Of a stretch of DNA of 64,000 nt, positions 11,381-50,965 are shown in pieces. The first letter of the stretch is position 1; every line of letters starts with the position of its first letter. Source of the DNA: Psychrilyobacter piezotolerans (GTDB lineage Bacteria > Fusobacteriota > Fusobacteriia > Fusobacteriales > Fusobacteriaceae); the NCBI RefSeq assembly GCF_003391055.1, contig NZ_QUAJ01000002.1:124001-188000 (forward strand), written 5' to 3'. The notes under the pieces were generated by a model. That model did no database searches, had not been told where the DNA came from, and saw only the letters and a program-made list of their open reading frames with translations. A program made the position numbers and the translations under genes.

Positions 11381-11800
11381 ACAACCACCTCCTAAAAAAT
11401 ATTTATTCCTTATTCTTTATTTCATAAATTTAATAAACTTCCTCTTTTATTAAATTTATATATTTATCATGGGAAAATAAAATTTAATTTTTCAACTAAT
11501 TATATAACTTTATTATGGTAACTATTCATTTTAAATATATTATTTTTTTTTAATAGTACAGATATTGCAGTCATATCTTCATTTTTCCTTAATAAAGTTA
11601 GCTTAAAAAACTAAGTTTATCAACTGGATAAGTAAATAAAAAAATACCGTCATAAAAAGACTTTTCTTTTTATTTCCTCTAATAAGGATATAAATATTTT
11701 TTTCACTTGACTTTGTGTTCTTTATATAGTAAAAATGTATTAGAACGAATCTATGAATGAGTTTTCATTTTTTTAGATAGGTAACATAAATCAAATATAT
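11381..11800. other. Divergent intergenic region upstream of the lysine riboswitch
   Basis: Very AT-rich. TTGACT at 11707-11712 and TATAGT at 11725-11730 are only 12 bp apart. An alternative pairing of TTTCAC (11701-11706) with TATAGT gives an 18-bp spacer. The lysine-operon promoter is therefore probably here but not resolved. No gene is seen. Confidence 0.45.
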
Positions 11801-11971
11801 AATAGAGGAGCATTTATTGTGGTAACTTTTAACATTCAAAGGATCGGAAGATCTTGCGAAGTTAAAAGTGAAGGACTTAATTGCCGAAAGGTTGGATCTA
11901 TATAGAGCTAACCTTGGTCAATATGGGAAAATCCATCTTGACTGTCACAACTTTAGTTGTGGAGAGCTATT
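11801..11971 (+). ncRNA. Lysine riboswitch (L box)
   Basis: The leader of the lysine fermentation operon matches the lysine aptamer as known from Bacillus lysC. P1 pairs AATAG (11801-11805) with CTATT (11967-11971). A GAGGAGCA-type 5' junction follows P1, GCCGAAAGG is at 11883-11891, and the 3' signature CTGTCA, a hairpin CACAAC/GTTGTG and GGAGAGCTAT is at 11942-11970. The expression platform between 11972 and 12056 is not clear: a short TGATTT/AAATCA hairpin and a T run at 12018-12024 are visible, so it may act at transcription. Since the downstream genes degrade lysine, lysine should switch the operon on; that direction is inferred from biology. Confidence 0.8.
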
Positions 11972-12056
11972 TCTTTTTAGTTCTTGGTGATTTTCTGTCT
12001 TAAATCATGGATAGGTGTTTTTTTGATGCAAAAAAATAAAAAAGGGGGAATGAGTT

Positions 12057-31296: not shown

Positions 31297-31325
31297 TTGT
31301 TTTTTGGGGGATCTTGTGGTAATAT
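31297..31325 (+). promoter_or_regulatory. Promoter of the xpt leader
   Basis: TTGTTT (31297-31302), 17-bp spacer, TAATAT (31320-31325), just upstream of the purine riboswitch. Confidence 0.55.
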
Positions 31326-31338
31326 AGATAAAATCAAT

Positions 31339-31403
31339 TCTCATATATTTTCTTAATAAGGAAGAAAGTTTCTACTAGCTGCCGTAAATAGCTAACTATG
31401 AGT
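31339..31403 (+). ncRNA. Purine riboswitch, guanine class
   Basis: P1 CTCATA (31340-31345) pairs with TATGAG (31397-31402). P2 TTCTT/AAGAA closes an AATAAGG loop, the core AGTTTCTAC is present, and P3 TAGCT/AGCTA closes a CCGTAA-type loop. The 3' junction reads ACTATG, with C at the specificity position, which predicts guanine/xanthine-type recognition rather than adenine. The expression platform shows GAGTG/CACTC pairing between 31401 and 31441 but no clear T run. It sits 75 bp upstream of xpt. Confidence 0.88.
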
Positions 31404-31478
31404 GTAATTTTAAGATGAATATTTTCTTAATAATTTCACTCAATATGAGGTGTTTAAAACATTTTTGGAGGTTTAATT

Positions 31479-32067: not shown

Positions 32068-32099
32068 AAAAGAAGATCCCTAGGGACCTTCTTTTTTTT
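32068..32099. terminator. Bidirectional terminator between xpt and the aminotransferase
   Basis: AGAAGATCCC and GGGACCTTCT form a stem around TA with one mismatch. A and T runs lie on both sides, serving xpt and the convergent aromatic operon. Confidence 0.8.
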
Positions 32100-33333
32100 A
32101 AGCTATAACCTTTTTAATTTTTTTAGCTAAACCTTCTAATTTTTTACTGGGACTTCCGCATATTGCAATCCTTATCCCATGGGCTACCTGGATTGGATAT
32201 ATATTTTCGTGGTTCAGCTTTTCAATACTTTCTTTGATTTTTTCATTTTCTATCTTTAATGTAATAAAAAAGCCCTCTTTATATGGATAAACTTCTAAAC
32301 CTACTTCCTTGGCTTCCTCTAAAAATATCTTAGACCTTTTCTCCAACAGTTTTACATATCCATCTCTTTCCTCTGTTAATTTATCCCTTAAGGTTTTATT
32401 ACTTTGGATAGTTGAAAATAATTTCATCCCACCCTTAGGAACATTTGACCAAACACCCCGACACGTAAATTCATTGGCTCTCATATAGTCATCTATATTT
32501 TTCTTTTCATTTGAAATAAATACACTTCCCCCTACACGAAGTCCATATTTAGTCAGTGTTTTCGAGCAGCTAAATGCGAATACAACTAAATTTTTAGGAG
32601 ATAAGTTCGTAAAACTTTCCATATATTTACGACTTTCTTCATATCCTTTTACAGAGTAGTCTATATAAGCAACATCATTTAAAAGGATAAAATTCCCATC
32701 TTCAGACAGGTCATTCATGACTTTTACAACACTCTCCCACTCAGATTTGCTCATAGAGTATCCTGTAGGATTGTGACACGGATCATTTATTATGACTAAA
32801 ACTTTTCCCTGTAATTTCATTATCTTGGATGATTTTTCTCTGAAACTTTCGATATTAAACTCATCTTTTTCATTGAATAACTCATAGGTTTCTATTTTTA
32901 AATCATGTTCCTTTGCCATTATCTTATAGGGGCCCCAACCGATATTTGGAATAAGCAGTGTTTCTCCTGCATCCAATATATTTTTCAGGGTAGAACTCAC
33001 AGATCCAGATCCACCAGGGGTAGCTATAGCTCCCACATTGAATTTTTCTTCATGATCCCCTAATACCCATGACTTTATTTCCCTCAGATAATCATTGTTT
33101 CCAATAAATGATTCTGCATACGGTGCTATGTCCATCTTATTTAAATTTTTATACACCTCACTTACAGAATCAAAAATAGTAAATTTGCCATCCTCATCAC
33201 AAAGTGCTCCTATCGTTACATCCACTACCTTGTCTTCACCATACTTAAGCTTAGCATCACTGGCCTTTTTTACCATGGTAAATACCGTATCTACAATATT
33301 TTTATCTTCCGATCTTTTGGCTAATATTCCCAT
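32098..33333 (-). CDS. Aromatic amino acid aminotransferase (class I/II)
   Basis: PLP-dependent aminotransferase of 411 residues. Visible features are the NDPCHNPTGYSMS segment near residue 190, the PLP lysine in FSCSKTLTKYGLRVG near residue 262, and a C-terminal arginine in GIRIAICG that would bind the substrate carboxylate. It is the last gene of the aromatic unit, 10 bp after aroE. It is therefore the likely transaminase of phenylpyruvate and 4-hydroxyphenylpyruvate, although aspartate aminotransferase activity cannot be excluded. Confidence 0.8.
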   Translation of the reverse strand: MGILAKRSEDKNIVDTVFTMVKKASDAKLKYGEDKVVDVTIGALCDEDGKFTIFDSVSEVYKNLNKMDIAPYAESFIGNNDYLREIKSWVLGDHEEKFNVGAIATPGGSGSVSSTLKNILDAGETLLIPNIGWGPYKIMAKEHDLKIETYELFNEKDEFNIESFREKSSKIMKLQGKVLVIINDPCHNPTGYSMSKSEWESVVKVMNDLSEDGNFILLNDVAYIDYSVKGYEESRKYMESFTNLSPKNLVVFAFSCSKTLTKYGLRVGGSVFISNEKKNIDDYMRANEFTCRGVWSNVPKGGMKLFSTIQSNKTLRDKLTEERDGYVKLLEKRSKIFLEEAKEVGLEVYPYKEGFFITLKIENEKIKESIEKLNHENIYPIQVAHGIRIAICGSPSKKLEGLAKKIKKVIA

Positions 33334-33343
33334 TTTCTCCTCC

Positions 33344-34159
33344 TTATTTTTTATAGATTGTTCCCTTTATCTTTTCATATATTTCCTGTATATCACCCTC
33401 CGGCATTTCTCTTTCCTGCCATATTTCTTCTGCTTTTACAGCCTGCCCCACCAGCATCAAGAGTCCATTTTCTCCTACTTCAAACCCCTCTAAAAATTTA
33501 GTTTTTTGCGGGTTATAGATAAGATCAATTCCAGCCTGGTATTCTTTTTTTTCCTCTATATCCAGTATACTACATTCTATATTTGGATGCATCCCACAGG
33601 GAGTGCAATTAACTATTAAATTTTTTTCAGATATGGTCCTTAATTCATTGTAGGAAATAATATTTAAATCTTGAAAATTTTGAAAATTAATCCTGGCTTT
33701 TTCTGTATCTCTGGTGACTAAGTAATTTTCTCCCCCTAAATCTTCCAAACACTTAACCACTGCTCTCGCTGATCCACCACCACCACAGATAAAGTTTTTT
33801 TTATTTTTTACCTCTAACTTTAATTTAGATATTATCATCTTGAATCCATAGTAATCTGTATTATAGCCGATTAATCTCCCGCCTTTAGACATTACAGTAT
33901 TAACTGCTCCTATCTGTTTGGCTTCTTCGGATATTTCATCTAAATACTCCAAAATATCTGTCTTGTAGGGGATGGTTATATTTATACCTAATAATTCTGA
34001 CCCTCTTAACTTTTTTACCACTTCTGCCAGATTATTATGAGCCACCTCTATCAATGAATATTCCCCATCTATCTCAAATCTTTCAAATATCATCTTATGG
34101 ATCATAGGAGAATAACTATGCCCTAATTTCTCTCCAATTAAAGCGTATTTATTTTTCAT
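33344..34159 (-). CDS. aroE: Shikimate dehydrogenase
   Basis: NADPH-dependent reduction of 3-dehydroshikimate to shikimate. The 271-residue chain shows GEKLGHSYSPMIH near the N-terminus, the catalytic Lys in ITIPYKTDI near residue 65, and the nucleotide-binding GGGGSARAV near residue 125. ATG 34159 is chosen with GAGGTG upstream; a TTG at 34168 is an alternative. It overlaps the end of pheA by 11 bp. Confidence 0.93.
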   Translation of the reverse strand: MKNKYALIGEKLGHSYSPMIHKMIFERFEIDGEYSLIEVAHNNLAEVVKKLRGSELLGINITIPYKTDILEYLDEISEEAKQIGAVNTVMSKGGRLIGYNTDYYGFKMIISKLKLEVKNKKNFICGGGGSARAVVKCLEDLGGENYLVTRDTEKARINFQNFQDLNIISYNELRTISEKNLIVNCTPCGMHPNIECSILDIEEKKEYQAGIDLIYNPQKTKFLEGFEVGENGLLMLVGQAVKAEEIWQEREMPEGDIQEIYEKIKGTIYKK

Positions 34160-35219
34160 AACTGCCAATCACCTCAAAATATTTACTTTTTTTCTCTATC
34201 TCTTCTATTGAAGGTTTCAAGGTGTTGTAGTTCCCCTCCAATTCTACAAAAAAAACATATTCCCAGGGAGAATCTTTAAGAGGCCTTGATTTTATACTTA
34301 ACATATTGATACCGTATCTGCTGAACTTCCCTAAAACACTGGAAAGGTCTCCTGATTTATTATATGTGGAAAATGCCACCATGATCCTGTTATGATTTTT
34401 GTTTACAATTAATTTATTCCCAATGACCATAAATTTAGTTGTATTTTCTTCATGGGTATTTATGTTTTTTGCCAGGATATCCAAATTATAGATCCTTGCT
34501 GTTTCAGCACTTCCTATAGCCCCTTTAGTTATATCCTTCATTTCACTTACATATTTTGCACTTATAGCTGTATTGTAGTATGGAATCTCCTTATAACCTC
34601 TCCCCTTTAAAAAAGTTTGAGATTGTTTGAACCCCTGAATATGAGAATAGATTTCTTTGATATCACTTAATTTAGAGCCCTTTATCCCCAGTAAATTGTG
34701 GTCTATTTTCAACTCTATAATATCTATTATATAGGCATTGTATTTTTTTATAAGATCAAAATTATCGGTGATATCCCCTGTATAGGAATTTTCAATAGGC
34801 AGTACCCCTACCTCTATTTCTTTATTTTTTAATGCTATAAATACATCTTCAAAGTTGTGGTAGGAGTTTAGGAGTTCATCTTTATATTTAGTTTTAAGTG
34901 CCAAATAACTGAAGGATCCCGGTATCCCCTGGTATCCAACCACCTTATCCAGCCCCAGAATAGCCTTTTGATAACTTCTAGAAATTTCCATATTTCCTTC
35001 TAAAAATTCAACATAATATTTTTTTAGTTTTTCATCTGAAACCCTCCTGGAATTTTCTTCTATTACTACTTTTTCCCTTGCTGTATCCAGCACTTCCATC
35101 CCTGTACTCTGCTTATATTTTGCAATTTTTTCCACCACGTTCATTCTTTTTACAAATAATTTTGCCATCTCTTCATCTATTTTATTTATCTCACTTCTCA
35201 ATTGATCTAATTTATTCAT
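34149..35219 (-). CDS. pheA: Bifunctional chorismate mutase/prephenate dehydratase
   Basis: Converts chorismate to prephenate and then phenylpyruvate for phenylalanine synthesis. Domains in order: AroQ-type chorismate mutase (about 1-85), prephenate dehydratase (about 90-270, starting GYQGIPGSFSYLA, with ENTTKFMVIG near its end), and a C-terminal ACT domain (about 275-355) containing IKSRPLKDSPWEY, which corresponds to the Phe-binding ESRP motif. Feedback inhibition by phenylalanine is therefore likely. Start 35219 is preferred on ribosome binding site spacing; ATG 35228 is possible. It follows aroC after a few bases. Confidence 0.92.
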   Translation of the reverse strand: MNKLDQLRSEINKIDEEMAKLFVKRMNVVEKIAKYKQSTGMEVLDTAREKVVIEENSRRVSDEKLKKYYVEFLEGNMEISRSYQKAILGLDKVVGYQGIPGSFSYLALKTKYKDELLNSYHNFEDVFIALKNKEIEVGVLPIENSYTGDITDNFDLIKKYNAYIIDIIELKIDHNLLGIKGSKLSDIKEIYSHIQGFKQSQTFLKGRGYKEIPYYNTAISAKYVSEMKDITKGAIGSAETARIYNLDILAKNINTHEENTTKFMVIGNKLIVNKNHNRIMVAFSTYNKSGDLSSVLGKFSRYGINMLSIKSRPLKDSPWEYVFFVELEGNYNTLKPSIEEIEKKSKYFEVIGSYEK

Positions 35220-35229
35220 TTCCACCATC

Positions 35230-36309
35230 CTAAGATACCATCAAAAAATCTAAGATCCCTATGGCTGCCATGGCTTCTACTACCACTAAAGCTCTTGGAA
35301 CTATACAGGGATCGTGCCTTCCTACAATTTTAAATTCTGTTTCCTCATTAGTTTTCATATTTATAGTTTTTTGAGCCTTTGATATAGAAGGAGTTGGTTT
35401 TATAGCCACCTTAAAGTTTATAGGCATCCCATTGGTAATTCCTCCTAAAACTCCCCCGTTATTATTAGTTATAGTTTTTACTTGCTCGCCATCCATATAG
35501 ATATCATCATTGGCTTCACTTCCAAATAGATCGGTTATTCCAAATCCAGCACCAAACTCCACACCTTTTACAGCTGGGATAGAATACATCAACCCGGCTA
35601 ACTGGCTCTCAATAGAATTAAAAAATGGGTTTCCAATTCCGGGTTTCATCCCTATGATAGAGCACTCTATTACTCCTCCCAAGGAATCACACCTACTTTT
35701 TGCCTGGAGTATCTTTTCCCGGCTGAGACTTTCCAAGGTTTCATCTAAAAATGGGAGCTGTTTTTCAGACAGTTTTTTAAAAACTTCCATATTCAGATCC
35801 TTTTCACAAAAATCCCTGTCTTTAAGATCTTTTATACTCTTTATATGTGTTCCTATATGGATCCCTTTCTGCTTTAATATTTGCTTTGCCACTGCCCCTG
35901 CAAATACAACGGGAGCTGTCAGCCTGCCGGAAAAATGACCTCCTCCACGATAATCATTGTACCCGTCATACCTTTTATACCCGGTATAGTCAGCATGAGC
36001 CGGTCTGGCTATATTCTTTATCTGGCTGTAATCCCTCGATTGCTGGTCTCTATTTCTAATCAGTATACTCAGAGGTGCTCCTGTAGTATAACCATTAAAA
36101 TATCCGCTTAAAATTTCAAAAGTATCTGCTTCTTTTCTGGCTGTTGTAAGTTCATTTTTACCTGTAGCACGTCTTTGCATCTCGAATTTTATCAAATCCA
36201 GGTCTAACTCCACCCCTGCCGGTAAGCCGTCAATGGTAATCCCTATCCCTGCACCGTGGGATTCTCCAAACAATGATAATTTTATATTTTTCCCCCAAGT
36301 TGAACCCAT
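35230..36309 (-). CDS. aroC: Chorismate synthase
   Basis: FMN-dependent conversion of EPSP to chorismate. The 359-residue chain has the family signatures GESHGAGIGITIDG near residue 15, RPAHADYTGYKRYDGYNDYRGGGHFSGR near residues 105-130 and RHDPCIVPRA near residue 335. ATG 36309 follows AAAGGAGG; the upstream ATG at 36366 lies before that site. The preceding 260 bp up to aroA are non-coding, so an additional promoter for aroC-pheA-aroE is possible but not evident. Confidence 0.95.
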   Translation of the reverse strand: MGSTWGKNIKLSLFGESHGAGIGITIDGLPAGVELDLDLIKFEMQRRATGKNELTTARKEADTFEILSGYFNGYTTGAPLSILIRNRDQQSRDYSQIKNIARPAHADYTGYKRYDGYNDYRGGGHFSGRLTAPVVFAGAVAKQILKQKGIHIGTHIKSIKDLKDRDFCEKDLNMEVFKKLSEKQLPFLDETLESLSREKILQAKSRCDSLGGVIECSIIGMKPGIGNPFFNSIESQLAGLMYSIPAVKGVEFGAGFGITDLFGSEANDDIYMDGEQVKTITNNNGGVLGGITNGMPINFKVAIKPTPSISKAQKTINMKTNEETEFKIVGRHDPCIVPRALVVVEAMAAIGILDFLMVS

Positions 36310-36573
36310 AACGCCTCCTTTTTTGCCGCAGATGACACTGATTATCAACAGAGCTTTTAGAATCACAGAACACGGTTCTCTTTTAGATTACCCGATATGG
36401 GCATCACCAATATCTCTAAAGTTTATTCCATAAACTAAGAATATTGCGAACACAGGAAACTCTCTGATTTTTACGGATTAACTTTTTTCTAGGTTTTACC
36501 CATAAAATAAAAAGCCAATTTTTCTCATTTCCGTGATAATTTATGTCATTCATGGTTTCAGTTTTTTATCTTT
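36310..36573. other. Gap inside the aro unit with degenerate repeats
   Basis: Non-coding. It contains GCCGCAGATGACACTGATTAT near 36328 and TTACGGATTAAC near 36469, which resemble relic repeats at 29600 and elsewhere. No terminator or clear promoter was recognised, so aroA and aroC may still be co-transcribed. Confidence 0.4.
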
Positions 36574-37848
36574 TTACTCCTCTATTATTTCCATATTCCC
36601 GCTTAGTTTTTCAAAATCTTTCCAAAAGTTCGGATATGATTTTTTCACCGAATCTGCACCTGTAAGGATAATCGGCTCATCACATCTGCTGCTGGCTACT
36701 GCCAGTGCCATGGCTACCCTATGATCGTTCCAGGCATCTACTTCTACTCCACCCTTTAGTTTTTTTACTCCCTCTATGATCATCCCATCCTCAGTTTCTA
36801 CTATCTTAGCACCCAATTTATTCAGTTCGGTTGTCATAGAAGTTATCCTGTCAGATTCTTTTATCCTCAGTCTGCCGGCATTAATTATCCTGGTAGTCCC
36901 TTCACTTAAACTAGCCAAGACCGTCACTATAGGCCCTAAATCCGGGCATTGACTCAGGTCAATTGTTGCCCCGGTTGATTTTTTCCCTGCTATACTAATT
37001 ACACCTTCATCTATTGTCAAGTCGCCACCCATATCTTTCAATATCTTTATTATTTCCCTGTCGCCTTGCAGAGACTCAGGGTTCATTCCAAGACAATTGA
37101 TACCATCATTTAAAAATCCAGCTACCAGCCAAAAGGCTACCTGGGAAAAATCTCCCTCGACCCTATAATCATGTGCCCTGTATCCTTGATTCCCAGGAAC
37201 AATAAATTTTTCATAATTTTCATTGATTATTTTGATGCCGAATCTGTCTAAAATATCTAAAGTCAGGTCTATATACCCTTTAGATTCCAAATTAGTAGTT
37301 ATAATTATTTCAGAATCGCCATCTAATTTTGGCAGTGTATAGAGCAGCCCCGTTATAAATTGAGAACTTATATCTCCCCTTACCTCAAACCTGCCTGGTT
37401 TTAATTTCCCATCTATAGTTAAGGGCAGTTCTTCCACACCCCGGCTGTATTTTATCCCCTGTTTGTCAAAAATTTCATGGAATACATTGAGTGGTCTGGT
37501 AGTCAGTCTTCCCTCTCCTACAAAGGTCACTTCCCCATCTGCCAATAGAGATATAGGTATCATAAATCTGATTGTAGATCCCGATTCCCCGCAATTTATA
37601 ATTTTATTTATCCTTTTTAGGTTTTTAGATCCTGTAATAACTTCATAATCTTCAAATATTTCTATCTCCACTCCTAAATCTTTCATAGCCTGGGTTGTTA
37701 CTGCTATATCATTTGAAAAATTAAGGTTTGTTATCACACTCTTTCCATCAGCTAATGAACCTGCAATTATAGCTCTATGTGCCAGACTTTTAGACGGTGG
37801 TATCACCACATCCCCTTTTAATTTGTTTGGAATTATTCTTACCTTCAT
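36574..37848 (-). CDS. aroA: 3-Phosphoshikimate 1-carboxyvinyltransferase (EPSP synthase)
   Basis: Forms EPSP from shikimate 3-phosphate and PEP. The 424-residue chain has PSKSLAHRAIIAGSLADG near residue 18, the NCGESGSTIRFM segment near residue 85 and LRIKESDRI near residue 330. The first signature carries Ala rather than Gly in the usual NAGTAMR-like PEP-loop region, which here reads GESGSTIRF, a class II-like form. ATG 37848 is set by TAGGAGGG just upstream. Confidence 0.93.
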   Translation of the reverse strand: MKVRIIPNKLKGDVVIPPSKSLAHRAIIAGSLADGKSVITNLNFSNDIAVTTQAMKDLGVEIEIFEDYEVITGSKNLKRINKIINCGESGSTIRFMIPISLLADGEVTFVGEGRLTTRPLNVFHEIFDKQGIKYSRGVEELPLTIDGKLKPGRFEVRGDISSQFITGLLYTLPKLDGDSEIIITTNLESKGYIDLTLDILDRFGIKIINENYEKFIVPGNQGYRAHDYRVEGDFSQVAFWLVAGFLNDGINCLGMNPESLQGDREIIKILKDMGGDLTIDEGVISIAGKKSTGATIDLSQCPDLGPIVTVLASLSEGTTRIINAGRLRIKESDRITSMTTELNKLGAKIVETEDGMIIEGVKKLKGGVEVDAWNDHRVAMALAVASSRCDEPIILTGADSVKKSYPNFWKDFEKLSGNMEIIEE

Positions 37849-37919
37849 TTCTACCCTCCTACCCTGCAAAATTACTAGTTCTAGACTACGTTGCATCCAT
37901 TTGATTTAAATCTAATCTT

Positions 37920-38984
37920 TTATTTAAACAATTTATTGGTGATCTCTTCCTCTCCTACCTTCTTTATCTCTACCTTCCCTATTTCAGATAAAAATATAAA
38001 ATTTAATATTCCCGATATATTTTTTTTATCGGTTTTCATGATCTCTATAAGATCTTTTATTTCAACCTCGTCTTCTATGGGAAGGTTATATTTTTTTAAA
38101 ATTTCCTTTATTTTATCCGAAACCCCTGGTTTTGTTATTCCTAATCTTTCCCCTAACTTTGTTATGTCATACATGCCTATGGAGATTGCCTCTCCGTGGG
38201 TATATTTCCCATAGTTATAATATTTTTCAATGGCATGACCCAGAGTATGACCAAAATTTAATATCATACGCAAGCCCAGATCCAGCTCATCTTTTTCTAC
38301 TATTTTCGCCTTTATCTCACAGCATTTTTTAATTATTTTTTCAATATCCGTCATGGAACTCTTTAGATCTTCCTTCCCCAGCAGATAGTCAAAAAACTCA
38401 CTGTCATAGATGGCACCATATTTTATTACCTCGGCCATCCCGCTCCTGACTTCCCTTTCATCCAGAGTTTTAAGGAGATCAGGATCGATAACTACCATCC
38501 TGGGCTGGTAAAAACTTCCAACTAAATTTTTACCCCTGGTTGTATCCACTGCAACCTTCCCTCCTACACTGCTGTCTACCTGAGCCAGCAGTGTAGTTGG
38601 TATCTGTATAAAATCTATCCCTCTATATATTGTAGATGCTGCAAATCCTGCCAAATCTCCAACAACTCCTCCACCAAAAGCTATGAGAAGATCTCCCCTT
38701 TTTATCTCTGAATCGATTATTTTTTCATATACTTCGGTGAGGGTCTCAAAGTTTTTATTTTCTTCCCCTGCATCAAAGACTACCTTTGCAGGCATATAAC
38801 CTGACATTTTCAAATTTTTTAATAATTTATCTCCATAAAGTTTATCTACATTTGTATCGGTCACTACAACTATTTTTTTCTTCTTGTAGACTTTTGATAT
38901 ATATTTTCCTATCTCATTAAATATTCCCCTGTCTATAAAAATATCATAGGATTTTTCATCCAAATTTATATGCAATTTTTCCAT
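37920..38984 (-). CDS. aroB: 3-Dehydroquinate synthase
   Basis: NAD- and metal-dependent cyclisation of DAHP to 3-dehydroquinate. The 354-residue chain has FGGGVVGDLAGFAASTIYRGI near residue 103 and the zinc-ligand motifs GMAEVIKYGAI near residue 180, NFGHTLGHAIE near residue 243 and YTHGEAISIGM near residue 260. It starts 2 bp after tyrA. Confidence 0.95.
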   Translation of the reverse strand: MEKLHINLDEKSYDIFIDRGIFNEIGKYISKVYKKKKIVVVTDTNVDKLYGDKLLKNLKMSGYMPAKVVFDAGEENKNFETLTEVYEKIIDSEIKRGDLLIAFGGGVVGDLAGFAASTIYRGIDFIQIPTTLLAQVDSSVGGKVAVDTTRGKNLVGSFYQPRMVVIDPDLLKTLDEREVRSGMAEVIKYGAIYDSEFFDYLLGKEDLKSSMTDIEKIIKKCCEIKAKIVEKDELDLGLRMILNFGHTLGHAIEKYYNYGKYTHGEAISIGMYDITKLGERLGITKPGVSDKIKEILKKYNLPIEDEVEIKDLIEIMKTDKKNISGILNFIFLSEIGKVEIKKVGEEEITNKLFK

Positions 38985-38986
38985 TT

Positions 38987-39832
38987 TTAAGATATCTCCT
39001 TTCTCCTCATGGTAGATTTTCTAAACTCTTCTTTCAGGGATTCACTATCTCCTTCTTTTAAAGAATTTTTTATTATATCTAAACTTTCCTCAAACCTTTC
39101 TATCTTTTTTATAAGATTTTCCTTGTTTCCCATGAACAGTTTATCCCACAGGTCTTCATTGATCATGGCTATACGGGTAAGATCCCGGTATGAATCTCCT
39201 ACAAACACATTGGTATCAAAGTCTTTTTCATCTGAATTAACTAATGCAACTGCTATGGCATGAGTTAACTGACTGGTAAAGGATATAATTTCGTCATGCT
39301 TTTCAGGAGTTATCCGGGAAACCCTCTTAAATCCCATCTTATATGCTAATTTTTCTACTAAGTCCAAATTTTCGGCATGATTCAAAGGATGAGGAGTTAT
39401 TATAAAGTTGGCTCCATGAAATATCTTTTCACTGGAGTTCCATACTCCCTGGACTTCCCTTCCTGCCATGGGATGGGCTCCTATAAAGTCTATATCTAAT
39501 GGAAGTTTTTTCATTACCCTGTCTAAAAGATCACCCTTTACTCCTGCTGCGTCTGTAATAACTGCATTAGTTTTAAAATCATCTCTATTTTCCCCTATAA
39601 ATTTTTCTACCAGGTTTGGATAGAGACAGATTACTATTAGGTCACTTTCAGATAGAGGGAGTTTAGGATCTGCAAATCCCCTGTCTATTATACCTTCAGA
39701 TTCTGCATAGGAGAGGGCTTTTTCATCCACATCTATCCCATAGATCACATCAAATTCATCTCTCAATGTTTTAGCATAACATCCACCTATAAGTCCTAAC
39801 CCTACTATACTTAATGTTTTTTTCTGCTTCAT
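38987..39832 (-). CDS. tyrA: Prephenate dehydrogenase
   Basis: NAD-dependent oxidative decarboxylation of prephenate to 4-hydroxyphenylpyruvate for tyrosine. The 281-residue chain has the Rossmann motif VGLGLIGGCYAKTL at the N-terminus, GAHPMAGRE near residue 120 and TPEKHDEIISFTSQLTHAIA near residue 180. It is monofunctional, with no chorismate mutase and no ACT domain. ATG 39832 is chosen because the longer frame to 39886 lacks a ribosome binding site and would add a non-homologous leader. Confidence 0.9.
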   Translation of the reverse strand: MKQKKTLSIVGLGLIGGCYAKTLRDEFDVIYGIDVDEKALSYAESEGIIDRGFADPKLPLSESDLIVICLYPNLVEKFIGENRDDFKTNAVITDAAGVKGDLLDRVMKKLPLDIDFIGAHPMAGREVQGVWNSSEKIFHGANFIITPHPLNHAENLDLVEKLAYKMGFKRVSRITPEKHDEIISFTSQLTHAIAVALVNSDEKDFDTNVFVGDSYRDLTRIAMINEDLWDKLFMGNKENLIKKIERFEESLDIIKNSLKEGDSESLKEEFRKSTMRRKEIS

Positions 39833-39888
39833 AATAAAAATCCCTTTCCTTAAAGGTTTCCCTAAAGGGACACCAAATAACATCATTT

Positions 39889-40034: not shown

Positions 40035-41051
40035 CTACATCTTCTTACCTACTACCTCTAATATCTTCTTTACATCGATTACTAAGTCTTCAAATTGCTC
40101 TGGTCTGAGTGATTGTGCCCCGTCACATAGGGCATTTTCAGGATCATTATGCACCTCTATCATCAACCCATCTGCTCCTACTGCTGCTGCTGCCATGGCT
40201 AACTTTTTTACCATCCATCTTTTTCCTGTAGCATGGCTGGGATCTACAATTACCGGCAGGTGACTCAATTTTTTTACTGCTAATACCGCACTTAGATCCA
40301 GTGTGTTCCTTGTATACTTTTCATATGTTCTGATTCCTCTTTCACACAGGATTACCTTGTCATTTCCCCCTGCCATGATATATTCAGCAGACATCAGCCA
40401 TTCTTCGATGGTAGCCGACAGCCCTCTTTTTAATAAAATTGGTTTATCTATCTTACCAAGGGCTTTCAACAGATCAAAGTTCTGCATATTTCTAGCTCCC
40501 ACCTGGATTATATCCACTTCTTCAGCAAATTTTTCCACCAGATCTACCGACATAATTTCAGTTACTATTGGCATCCCCGTTTCTTTTTTCGCTTCCTTTA
40601 ATAGTTCTAATCCCTCTAATTCCATCCCTTGGAAAGCGTAAGGAGAAGTTCTCGGCTTATATGCTCCTCCACGGAGGATTTGAGCCCCTGATGCTTTTAC
40701 CGATCTTGCTACTTCCAAGATTTGATCCCTTGATTCTACCGAACAAGGTCCAGACATAATAGTAAAATTCCCCCTGCCGATTTTTATCCCGTTTACATCT
40801 ATTATTGTGCATTCCTCCTGCATCTTCCTGTTGGCTTTCTTAAATGGTTCTTGTATTCTAGTCACCTTTTCTACTCCTTCTAATGCTTCCATATCTCTTA
40901 TGCTTAATTTTGATGTGTCTCCTACTATTCCTAAAACTCCATATTCCTTTCCCGATATATCCTTTATTTCCATTCCAAGGCTTTCAAATACTTCTACAAT
41001 ATGGCTCACTTGATCATTTGTGGCACCTTTTTTTAGTTTAATTATCATCAT
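40035..41051 (-). CDS. aroG: 3-Deoxy-7-phosphoheptulonate synthase (DAHP synthase, type I beta with N-terminal ACT-like domain)
   Basis: First committed step of aromatic biosynthesis: PEP plus erythrose 4-phosphate give DAHP. Residues 1-70 form the ferredoxin/ACT-like domain known from the Thermotoga enzyme, where it mediates inhibition by Tyr/Phe. The catalytic barrel follows, with MSGPCSVES near residue 98, [15 protein letters not shown] near residue 125 and DPSHATGKR near residue 265. The ATG at 41051 follows GGGAGG. The gene is preceded by a leader peptide, attenuator hairpins and its own promoter (41090-41340). Confidence 0.93.
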
Positions 41052-41090
41052 TTTTCCTCCCAATATATCTAGATTTTTAAATTATCCTAT

Positions 41091-41123
41091 AAAATAAAAA
41101 ACCTGTTCTCAATAGAACAGGTT
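41091..41123 (-). terminator. Attenuator terminator of the aroG leader
   Basis: On the minus strand AACCTGTTCT pairs with AGAACAGGTT and is followed by TTTTTTATTTT. Its 5' arm (41116-41123) is perfectly complementary to AACAGGTT just downstream of the leader peptide (41210-41217), which can form the antiterminator. Confidence 0.85.
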
Positions 41124-41135
41124 ACAATTTCCCTA

Positions 41136-41164
41136 ATAAAAAAACCTATATTTAAAATATAGGT
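41136..41164 (-). terminator. First hairpin-T-run of the aroG leader
   Basis: On the minus strand ACCTATATTT pairs with AAATATAGGT, followed by TTTTTTT. TAGACCT in its 5' arm can also pair with AGGTTTA next to the leader peptide stop (one G-U pair), so it may be regulated as well. Confidence 0.75.
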
Positions 41165-41219
41165 CTACAATTAAAAAATTTATTTTAACGAATTGTTTTA
41201 AGTTTAATAAACCTGTTGG

Positions 41220-41276
41220 TTATGAAATTTGATTGCTTTTCAATTCATACCAATATCTAAAGCCCTTCATCACCAT
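41220..41276 (-). CDS. Aromatic leader peptide of the aroG unit
   Basis: An 18-codon open frame, MVMKGFRYWYELKSNQIS, with a perfect AAGGAGGT ribosome binding site (41284-41291) 7-8 bp upstream of the ATG. Phe, Tyr, Trp and Tyr lie within five codons, so scarcity of any aromatic amino acid would stall a ribosome there. The stop codon lies 2 bp before AACAGGTT (41210-41217), so a ribosome that finishes translation would cover the antiterminator segment. This is the geometry of classical transcription attenuation. It is too short to appear in ordinary gene calls. Confidence 0.85.
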   Translation of the reverse strand: MVMKGFRYWYELKSNQIS

Positions 41277-41308
41277 CTGATTTACCTCCTTAAAATTTAT
41301 TTGATCTA

Positions 41309-41337
41309 ATCATACTCCTATTGTATCTCTTTGTCAA
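41309..41337 (-). promoter_or_regulatory. Promoter of the aroG leader
   Basis: Minus strand TTGACA (41332-41337), 17-bp spacer, TATGAT (41309-41314), about 33 bp upstream of the leader peptide start. Confidence 0.8.
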
Positions 41338-41389
41338 ACATTTTTTATTTATTTTTATCCCTGCTCTACATCTATACCATTCTGTAACT

Positions 41390-42163
41390 TCAACAGCCTT
41401 TTAATTCCCTGACTTTCTTCTCTATTACTTTTGGATCACCATTAGTTTCATGAACTAATTTTACGATAGCTGATCCGACTATGGCTCCATCTGCTATCCT
41501 ATGTATCTTTTCTACATGTTCCCTGCTGGATATCCCAAAACCAACCGCTAAAGGTAAGTCTGTCACGGCCCTTACTTCTTCCAGAAAACTTTTTAAATCT
41601 ACATCAAAGTTATCCCGAACCCCGGTCACACCAAAAGATGATATGCAGTAGACAAATCCACTCCCTCCCTGATTAATTATGTCCCCTAACCTCTCCTTGG
41701 AATTAGGAGCAACCAAGGGTATTAAATCTACATCGCTTCCCTCTATTAATTCTCTGATTTCTTCCCTTTCCTCCAGGGGAAGATCCGGTATTATGAGCCC
41801 ATCTACCCCAGCTTCCTTACATTTTTTTATAAAATTTTCTATCCCCTGGCTCAAGATAGTATTGAAATAGATTAAAAACACCAAGGGGATCTCTGTTTTT
41901 TCCCTGGTTTTTTTTACAACTTCAAATACTTTAAATAACCTGGTCCCATTGTCCAGGGCCCTCTTGCCGGCTGCCTGGATAACAGGCCCGTCAGCTATGG
42001 GATCTGAGTACGGTATCCCCAATTCTATTATGTCGGCTCCTCCCCTTTCCATAGCATAAATCAGCTGTTCTGTCTCATCTAAGCCAGGATCTCCAGCTGT
42101 TATATATGTAACCAGCGCTTTTTTATCTCCTAATTCTTTAAATTTTTGCTCTATCCTCTTCAT
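41390..42163 (-). CDS. trpA: Tryptophan synthase alpha chain
   Basis: Cleaves indole-3-glycerol phosphate to indole and glyceraldehyde 3-phosphate. The 257-residue TIM barrel has the catalytic Glu in DIIELGIPYSDPIADGP near residue 45 and the catalytic Asp in VDGLIIPDLP near residue 125, with GFGISSREH near residue 207. It starts 4 bp after trpB and ends the trp unit, about 50 bp before the aroG promoter. Confidence 0.95.
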   Translation of the reverse strand: MKRIEQKFKELGDKKALVTYITAGDPGLDETEQLIYAMERGGADIIELGIPYSDPIADGPVIQAAGKRALDNGTRLFKVFEVVKKTREKTEIPLVFLIYFNTILSQGIENFIKKCKEAGVDGLIIPDLPLEEREEIRELIEGSDVDLIPLVAPNSKERLGDIINQGGSGFVYCISSFGVTGVRDNFDVDLKSFLEEVRAVTDLPLAVGFGISSREHVEKIHRIADGAIVGSAIVKLVHETNGDPKVIEKKVRELKGC

Positions 42164-50519: not shown

Positions 50520-50534
50520 CTCTTTTCTCCCCTC

Positions 50535-50680
50535 AGATTAGGTGTCCTGACTTAGTTTCTTCCTACTCCCATCCCTTCCCAAGGTTTCTCCTCAGTGGTT
50601 AATGATGGTTTCGTCCACTTCTACAGTAGTGAAGGCTGTACTAGAATCGCACTAGTTTCCCTATTATTATTCTCTTCGTT
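50535..50680 (-). ncRNA. Cobalamin riboswitch (B12 element)
   Basis: Read on the minus strand, the leader contains the conserved GGGAA and GTGCGATTCTAGTACAGCC blocks, a central CACT/AGTG hairpin region, GGGAAGGGATGGGAG, and the B12-box-like GTCAGGACACCT about 20 bp before btuB. Length and order of the blocks fit the cobalamin aptamer. The last block lies close to the ribosome binding site, which suggests translational repression of btuB when B12 is abundant. Confidence 0.88.
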
Positions 50681-50683
50681 CTC

Positions 50684-50712
50684 AGTTTACAAAAACTATA
50701 AAAAAATGTCAA
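50684..50712 (-). promoter_or_regulatory. Promoter of the btuB riboswitch transcript
   Basis: Minus strand TTGACA (50707-50712), 17-bp spacer, TAAACT (50684-50689), directly upstream of the aptamer. Confidence 0.65.
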
Positions 50713-50965
50713 GATATTAACATTTTATTAATTAAAATTTAATTGTTTGCATTTAGTATGTTATCCGAATTTTGTCAGTGTTTAAAGATCAGACCTTCCT
50801 TGTGGTTCAACTGAGGAGGTATTAAAAAAATATATTTCTAGACATTTTTATGAATCTATCTTAATATTAGTATGATTATTATAAAAAAGTAAGGTTGAAT
50901 CTAATCTAGGATTTTATGATTTTTATCTTTCCTAAACTATCAAAAAATATAAAGGAGTCTCATCC
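50713..50965. other. Upstream region of btuC
   Basis: A non-coding region between the divergent btuB promoter and btuC. No B12 element is recognised on the plus strand, so btuC and btuD control is unclear. A GGAG ribosome binding site lies at 50952-50955. Confidence 0.4.

Follow-up and report, generated by a model that had tools for sequence, protein, structure and literature searches.

An aromatic leader region between trpA and aroG

The window analysed here is a stretch of 64,000 nt from Psychrilyobacter piezotolerans (GCF_003391055.1, contig NZ_QUAJ01000002.1, positions 124,001-188,000). On its minus strand trpA ends at 41390 and aroG, encoding a DAHP synthase, starts at 41051, and the aro leader region lies between the two. 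The genes that follow the leader (DAHP synthase, tyrA, aroB, aroA, aroC, pheA and aroE) make the amino acids for which it codes. The aroG-tyrA gap measures 148 nt in the window versus about 15 nt in two Fusobacteriaceae outside the genus (G042 and G054), in which aroG-tyrA is followed by aroA, pheA, an aminotransferase gene and aroC; in the window, aroG, tyrA and the onward genes are likely co-transcribed.

The sequence-only reading had described a promoter, a ribosome-binding site and an 18-codon frame with F, Y, W and Y codons, followed by two hairpins with T runs ahead of aroG, and a segment after the stop codon complementary to the 5′ arm of the main terminator. All of these were found in place on the minus strand (Table 1). 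Leader codons 6-10 read F-R-Y-W-Y and represent the control codons. The 5′ arm of the main terminator T2, AACCTGTT (41123-41116), complements AACAGGTT (41217-41210), while the 5′ arm of the first hairpin, T1, can alternatively pair with AGGTTTA of the same region. Two nucleotides separate the stop codon from AACAGGTT, so that a ribosome standing at the stop would cover this segment.

Table 1. Elements of the trp-aro region and riboswitches of the window, in window positions
Feature	Position	Strand	Basis or remark
Promoter of the leader transcript, TTGACA (41337-41332)-17-TATGAT (41314-41309)	41309-41337	-	11/12 consensus; sequence scan
Ribosome-binding site AGGAGG, 8 nt 5′ of ATG	41285-41290	-	GGAGG invariant in 6/6 genus members
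Leader ORF MVMKGFRYWYELKSNQIS*, 18 codons, ATG 41276, TAA 41222-41220	41220-41276	-	four variable codons, all synonymous
Possible protector (1:2) hairpin, TTGGTATGAA (W-Y-E codons and flanks) with TTCATAACCAA across the leader end	41216-41254, ends approximate	-	predicted fold, 5/6 genus members
Antiterminator segment AACAGGTT (region 2)	41210-41217	-	invariant in 6/6 genus members
Hairpin T1, GACCTATATT-TTA-AATATAGGTT (41165-41143) and T run	41137-41165	-	predicted fold
Main intrinsic terminator T2, AACCTGTTCT-ATTG-AGAACAGGTT (41123-41100) and T run	41091-41123	-	terminator scan, folding
aroG-type (type I-beta) DAHP synthase, RBS GGAGG 41060-41056	40035-41051	-	NF006421 / TIGR01361
tyrA-like prephenate dehydrogenase, presumed in the aroG unit	38987-39886	-	family match
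aroB	37920-38984	-	family match
aroA	36574-37896	-	family match
aroC	35230-36366	-	family match
pheA-type chorismate mutase/prephenate dehydratase	34149-35228	-	family match
aroE	33344-34168	-	just under the curated cut-off of TIGR00507
Aminotransferase, aromatic type, possible unit end	32098-33333	-	below curated cut-offs
trp operon leader MIRITWWWKSDNSTNKIALTRGPGLGNKSIY with WWW	47988-47893	-	
Promoter of the trp leader	48048-48020	-	
Terminator of the trp leader	47857-47835	-	
Cobalamin riboswitch	50520-50715	-	Rfam
Lysine riboswitch	11795-11977	+	Rfam
Purine riboswitch	31321-31418	+	Rfam

T2 is the sole terminator-like site within 500 bases, where 0.1 would be expected. When 18.5 kb were scanned on both strands, the overall count of promoter-like sites was no higher than in shuffled sequence, and only two sites matched at 11/12 positions, namely the promoters of the trp leader and of the aro leader. 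The frame itself is less telling, as shuffles gave about 0.18 SD-preceded small frames with at least four aromatics in 10 codons per 1000-nt upstream region. Since such small frames are not rare in AT-rich DNA, conservation had to decide whether the leader is real.

T-boxes regulate aromatic genes in many Firmicutes, and a T-box precedes trpE in one relative (G035), so we considered whether a tRNA-binding T-box or another riboswitch might stand ahead of aroG. An Rfam scan at the gathering score found no match to Trp_leader (RF00513), Phe_leader or T-box (RF00230) over the leader, whereas the same scans detect the lysine, purine and cobalamin elements of the window and T-boxes elsewhere, which makes this explanation extremely improbable. 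The other leaders examined likewise had no Rfam match to a T-box or another riboswitch. Six leader peptides were searched against Pfam and NCBIfam, and none matched a family.

Conservation of the leader within the genus

Of 98 Fusobacteriota genomes, 88 yielded a DAHP synthase or a relative, and six genomes of the genus (group g1) have DNA upstream of this gene and were compared. Promoter layout, SD, AACAGGTT, T1 and T2 are common to all six, the other members carrying TTGACA with a TAnnAT-type -10 at the leader promoter. The leader peptide is identical in all six genomes; codons 2, 4, 14 and 15 vary and every change is synonymous, as compared with a synonymous share of 16% expected of all random single changes and 31% of transitions. 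One genome (G059) has AAGCCTGTT as its terminator arm, which still pairs with AACAGGTTT by means of a G-U wobble. The small ORF and the pairing of AACAGGTT with the terminator arm, whose conservation in relatives the sequence-only reading had named as its check, are therefore both retained in the genus. Covariation was uninformative at this level, because the six sequences are nearly identical.

The aro leader unit lies directly after trpA in five genomes of the genus. In the sixth, G056 (locus L005, upstream of 1501; a genome only 62% complete), it has no trp operon in front, which indicates that the unit stands on its own. The DNA ahead of the aro leader in G056 resembles that ahead of the trp leader in the window, and the arrangement looks as if trp had been lost between two TTTGACAAA boxes.

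It could be argued that T1 and T2 are mere tandem terminators closing the trp operon, with the small ORF incidental. No other terminator occurs between trpA and the aro promoter (41337-41390), so T1 and T2 would also end trp transcripts, and a similar aromatic frame arises by chance at the rate of about 0.18 per region given above. However, the peptide is identical with synonymous changes only, the promoter and SD are conserved, the unit is kept in G056 without a trp operon, and differing aromatic leaders occur in other genera. We consider this explanation highly improbable.

Predicted dependence of antitermination on ribosome position

For the switch test we folded only the RNA downstream of a modelled ribosome, placed either at F6, Y8, W9 or Y10 or at the stop codon. 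This replaced two-sided folding, since the stall/stop contrast was weaker and blurred when RNA on both sides of the ribosome was free to pair. With the ribosome at any of the four aromatic codons, the T2 5′ arm was predicted to pair upstream with a probability of 0.84-0.87 in all six genus genomes. With the ribosome at the stop codon, the antiterminator probability dropped to 0.35 for the window and to 0.04-0.12 for the other five, and in each of the six genomes none of 60 dinucleotide shuffles of the stop-to-terminator stretch reached the stall-stop difference. The predicted switch point falls at leader codons 17-19. The stalled ribosome was also predicted to disfavour hairpin T1, whose 5′ arm was paired upstream at about 0.5 with a stalled ribosome versus 0.05-0.30 at the stop. 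Ribosome-masked folding thus gives the on/off behaviour anticipated by the sequence-only reading, at the level of prediction.

In the same model, a stall at nearly any of codons 1-16 gives antitermination, and the antiterminator is still predominant in ribosome-free RNA (predicted probability 0.69-0.87) despite the possible 1:2 hairpin, of a kind found in classical attenuators, that is predicted in five of the six genomes. Amino-acid specificity is therefore to be read from codon content only, and strong superattenuation is not predicted. When the complete terminator is included, T2 is the more stable fold at every ribosome position in the genus, so that control has to be kinetic, as it is in other attenuators.

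Sequence comparison and folding establish the ORF, its coding conservation, the hairpins, the mutually exclusive pairings and the predicted dependence on ribosome position. We propose, with a probability of roughly 0.87, that the aroG leader is a transcription attenuator of the classical, ribosome-mediated trp/phe type. Transcription would start at the promoter and a ribosome would translate the 18-codon leader while RNA polymerase proceeds. A shortage of charged tRNA-Phe, -Tyr or -Trp would make the ribosome stall within codons 6-10 and leave AACAGGTT free to pair with AACCTGTT, the 5′ arm of T2; the free segment could also compete with T1. Polymerase would then continue into aroG and probably on through tyrA-aroB-aroA-aroC-pheA-aroE. 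With an ample supply of the amino acids, the ribosome would reach the stop codon and cover AACAGGTT, T2 would form and transcription would end. We infer that the leader is transcribed and translated, that ribosomes truly stall on it and that all three amino acids act; for the last point, which is read from the codons only, our confidence is moderate.

Aromatic leaders in other Fusobacteriaceae

The sequence-only reading had suggested looking for aromatic leaders ahead of aroG in other Fusobacteriota, and further Fusobacteriaceae indeed carry them before the same gene. SD-preceded aromatic leaders stand ahead of DAHP synthase in G054 (MRDMKKIENRKLNTANSFWYFYYFINTDL, including SFWYFYYF), in G042-G044 (TNWYFYYYFRN), in G045 (YFYFRSLNYFFGISYF), G046 (NYFYFKFYF) and G047 (KYFFYF), and, farther upstream of the gene, in G035 (FSWYWY) and G032 (FSWYWC). 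The leaders outside the genus are thus rich in W, Y and F, with two genera carrying leaders of Y and F only (G045-G047). The predicted antiterminator depended strongly on ribosome position in G054 (0.74 at stall, 0.03 at stop) and G045 (0.72 and 0.02). Stall-favoured antitermination was also predicted clearly in G042, G043 and G032 and weakly in G044, and the folding model gave no stall/stop switching in G046, G047 and G035. The DAHP-synthase tree groups the genus with G054 and G042-G044 in a single clade (SH-aLRT 99) of 10 rows, and Trp, Tyr and Phe codons are present in the leader of every row.

These leaders bear on which amino acids the attenuator would sense. The same attenuator may in practice respond to just one or two of the three, for instance to Phe or Tyr, with the remaining aromatic codons as passengers. 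Limitation of Phe, but not of Tyr, is reported to elicit a response of the C. glutamicum aroR leader (FYF; PMC11802643). In addition, the leaders of G045-G047 lack a Trp codon although trp genes are present, and Trp already has its own WWW leader at the trp operon. Against this, a Trp codon stands beside Tyr in every leader of the ten-row clade, and the Trp-Tyr pair is kept though the surrounding peptide differs among three genera. We regard such a narrower sensor as a serious possibility, at somewhat less than even odds. The idea that Trp-less leaders mark organisms without trp genes fails, as G045-G047 carry trpA and trpC.

The comparison among genera also bears on a TnaC-like nascent-peptide arrest, in which the peptide would sense a free amino acid or other metabolite in the ribosome tunnel instead of codon starvation. 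Within the genus, invariance extends beyond the aromatic core to the entire peptide, and leaders of Clostridia (see below) conserve F-S-x-G beyond the aromatic codons, as such an arrest might require. Yet the fusobacterial genera share aromatic richness and no common arrest motif, and RNA pairing of codons 9-18 would equally explain invariance in one genus; nascent-peptide arrest thus appears very unlikely.

A Trp leader upstream of the trp operon

The trp operon of the window has a leader of its own (Table 1), with a predicted antiterminator probability of 0.96 when the ribosome stalls at W and 0.06 when it is at the stop. WW or WWW leaders also occur ahead of trpE in relatives from groups g1, g8, g9, g10, g11 and g14. 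Since no terminator separates trpA from the aro promoter, trp transcripts would also enter the aro attenuator, and the window would then hold two ribosome-read attenuators, the trp leader and the aro leader, in series.

Aromatic leaders ahead of DAHP synthase in Bacillota

A search of named genomes yielded 78 DAHP-synthase loci with enough upstream DNA, mostly from Bacillota, with a few from Fusobacteriota, Acholeplasmatales and others. We counted as leaders SD-preceded frames with at least five aromatics in 10 codons, 40-350 nt upstream of the gene. Such leaders were found at 40 of the 78 loci, as compared with 0.4 expected from shuffles and 1 in reverse complements; among 726 other genes at these loci, taken as controls, four had one. 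One of these four precedes a shikimate-kinase-like gene of Pelosinus, named by eye from its sequence (L090, minus strand, gene at about 8768). The stall/stop test was applied to 39 leaders that have a clear terminator and favoured antitermination in 35, with means of 0.74 at stall and 0.31 at stop (controls 0.54 and 0.41). The corresponding p-values (Wilcoxon, about 1e-10; difference beyond shuffles, about 4e-8) are optimistic because the loci are related to each other.

A leader sequence model built from 15 leaders, mostly of Clostridia, was run on 18 genomes. Strong matches appeared at the head of an aroB-like gene in C. puniceum (L171) and before another DAHP synthase in C. sardiniense (L172); both genomes were outside the building set of the model and have no leader beside the DAHP synthase used as the query. 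Reading by eye shows a comparable complementarity in many Clostridia, between AATGAGT within the end of the leader and ACTCATT in the terminator, which follows the same logic as AACAGGTT and AACCTGTT in the window. Taken together, these results suggest that a switch of the aroG type is widespread ahead of DAHP synthase in Fusobacteria and Clostridia.

The DAHP-synthase leaders of Clostridia are about 45 codons long and have KFYSFFYF-FWGFYFSAGYLFCKK in common (alignment A2; L038, L040, L044, L047, L066, L068, L087 and others). All 15 of the 15 leaders compared keep TTTTAGC, with the Ser codon AGC in it, unchanged or almost so. A local RNA structure was considered as the reason and set aside, as RNAalifold gave only three pairs, without compensatory changes.

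Relation to known attenuators and regulatory implications

The step that commits carbon to the aromatic amino acids as a whole is catalysed by DAHP synthase, the control of which is generally attributed to repressors, to feedback inhibition or to T-boxes. Our results suggest that in Fusobacteriaceae and many Clostridia this control is read by the translating ribosome instead. The tri-aromatic codon set of one fusobacterial clade would make an integrated end-product sensor of a branched pathway, testable by reporter fusions, and offers a concrete hypothesis for anaerobe lineages with little characterised aromatic regulation. Taking all lineages together, we give even odds to a broader proposal, namely that an uncollected class of aromatic leader attenuators governs how the shikimate pathway is entered across both Fusobacteriota and Bacillota, that one Fusobacteriaceae clade integrates Phe, Tyr and Trp, and that in the genus of the window this attenuator lies in series behind a Trp-specific one, a single trp-aro supra-operon thus being gated by two sensors that ribosomes read.

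The aro leader shares with trpL and pheL of E. coli a short ORF, control codons, antiterminator and terminator, with a ribosome at the stop favouring termination. Those leaders each serve one amino acid and one terminal branch, whereas in the window the common pathway with tyrA and pheA follows. Leaders whose codons represent more than one end product of a branched pathway are known from ilvGMEDA and thr, where they concern the branched-chain amino acids or Thr/Ile rather than the aromatic ones.

Among DAHP-synthase leaders, aroR ahead of aroF in C. glutamicum (Neshat et al. 2014) contains FYF and is described as responding to Phe and not to Tyr (PMC11802643, PMC4046766). Like the leader in the window, it is an aromatic-codon peptide directly before a DAHP-synthase operon, and it acts by stalled-ribosome attenuation, as is proposed here; unlike the leader in the window, aroR is actinobacterial, has no Trp codon and responds to Phe but not to Tyr. 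The uORFC-13-1 motif, a predicted uORF with one or more Phe codons and a terminator before aroF, differs from the leader in the window in that it comes from Acholeplasma and environmental sequences only, is a prediction and has no Trp/Tyr set described (PMC8632094). A survey of five genomes, including Clostridium novyi and Thermovirga lienii, lists two shikimate-gene uORF candidates with F and Y codons; these are not from Fusobacteria, and the main text of that survey does not analyse their mechanism (PMC6429828). They may well correspond to the Clostridia-type leader described here.

In 2010 a leader-peptide system of Firmicutes was presented as the first one beyond Proteobacteria and Actinobacteria (PMC2965389), and a T-box survey of 2008 reported none in its two Fusobacteria/Thermotogae genomes (PMC2494555). 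The sequence-only reading had known of no characterised example in Fusobacteriota. Our search of open-licence papers likewise found no description of aromatic DAHP-synthase leader attenuation in this phylum, but the kind itself is known or proposed in Corynebacterium, in Acholeplasma and for shikimate uORFs, so the claim of novelty must be narrowed. The aro leader belongs to a known kind of attenuator, the distribution of which is wider than described in the open-licence literature.

Other arrangements occur among the relatives as well. G035 (g6 lineage) carries a T-box before trpE (L158, 3092-3363) together with the FSWYWY leader at DAHP synthase, that is, two different amino-acid sensors in one genome. 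In G040 and G041 (loci L017 and L018), where no aromatic leader was found upstream of DAHP synthase, TTGTTCG...CGAACAA inverted repeats flank a promoter upstream of this gene and are possibly a repressor site.
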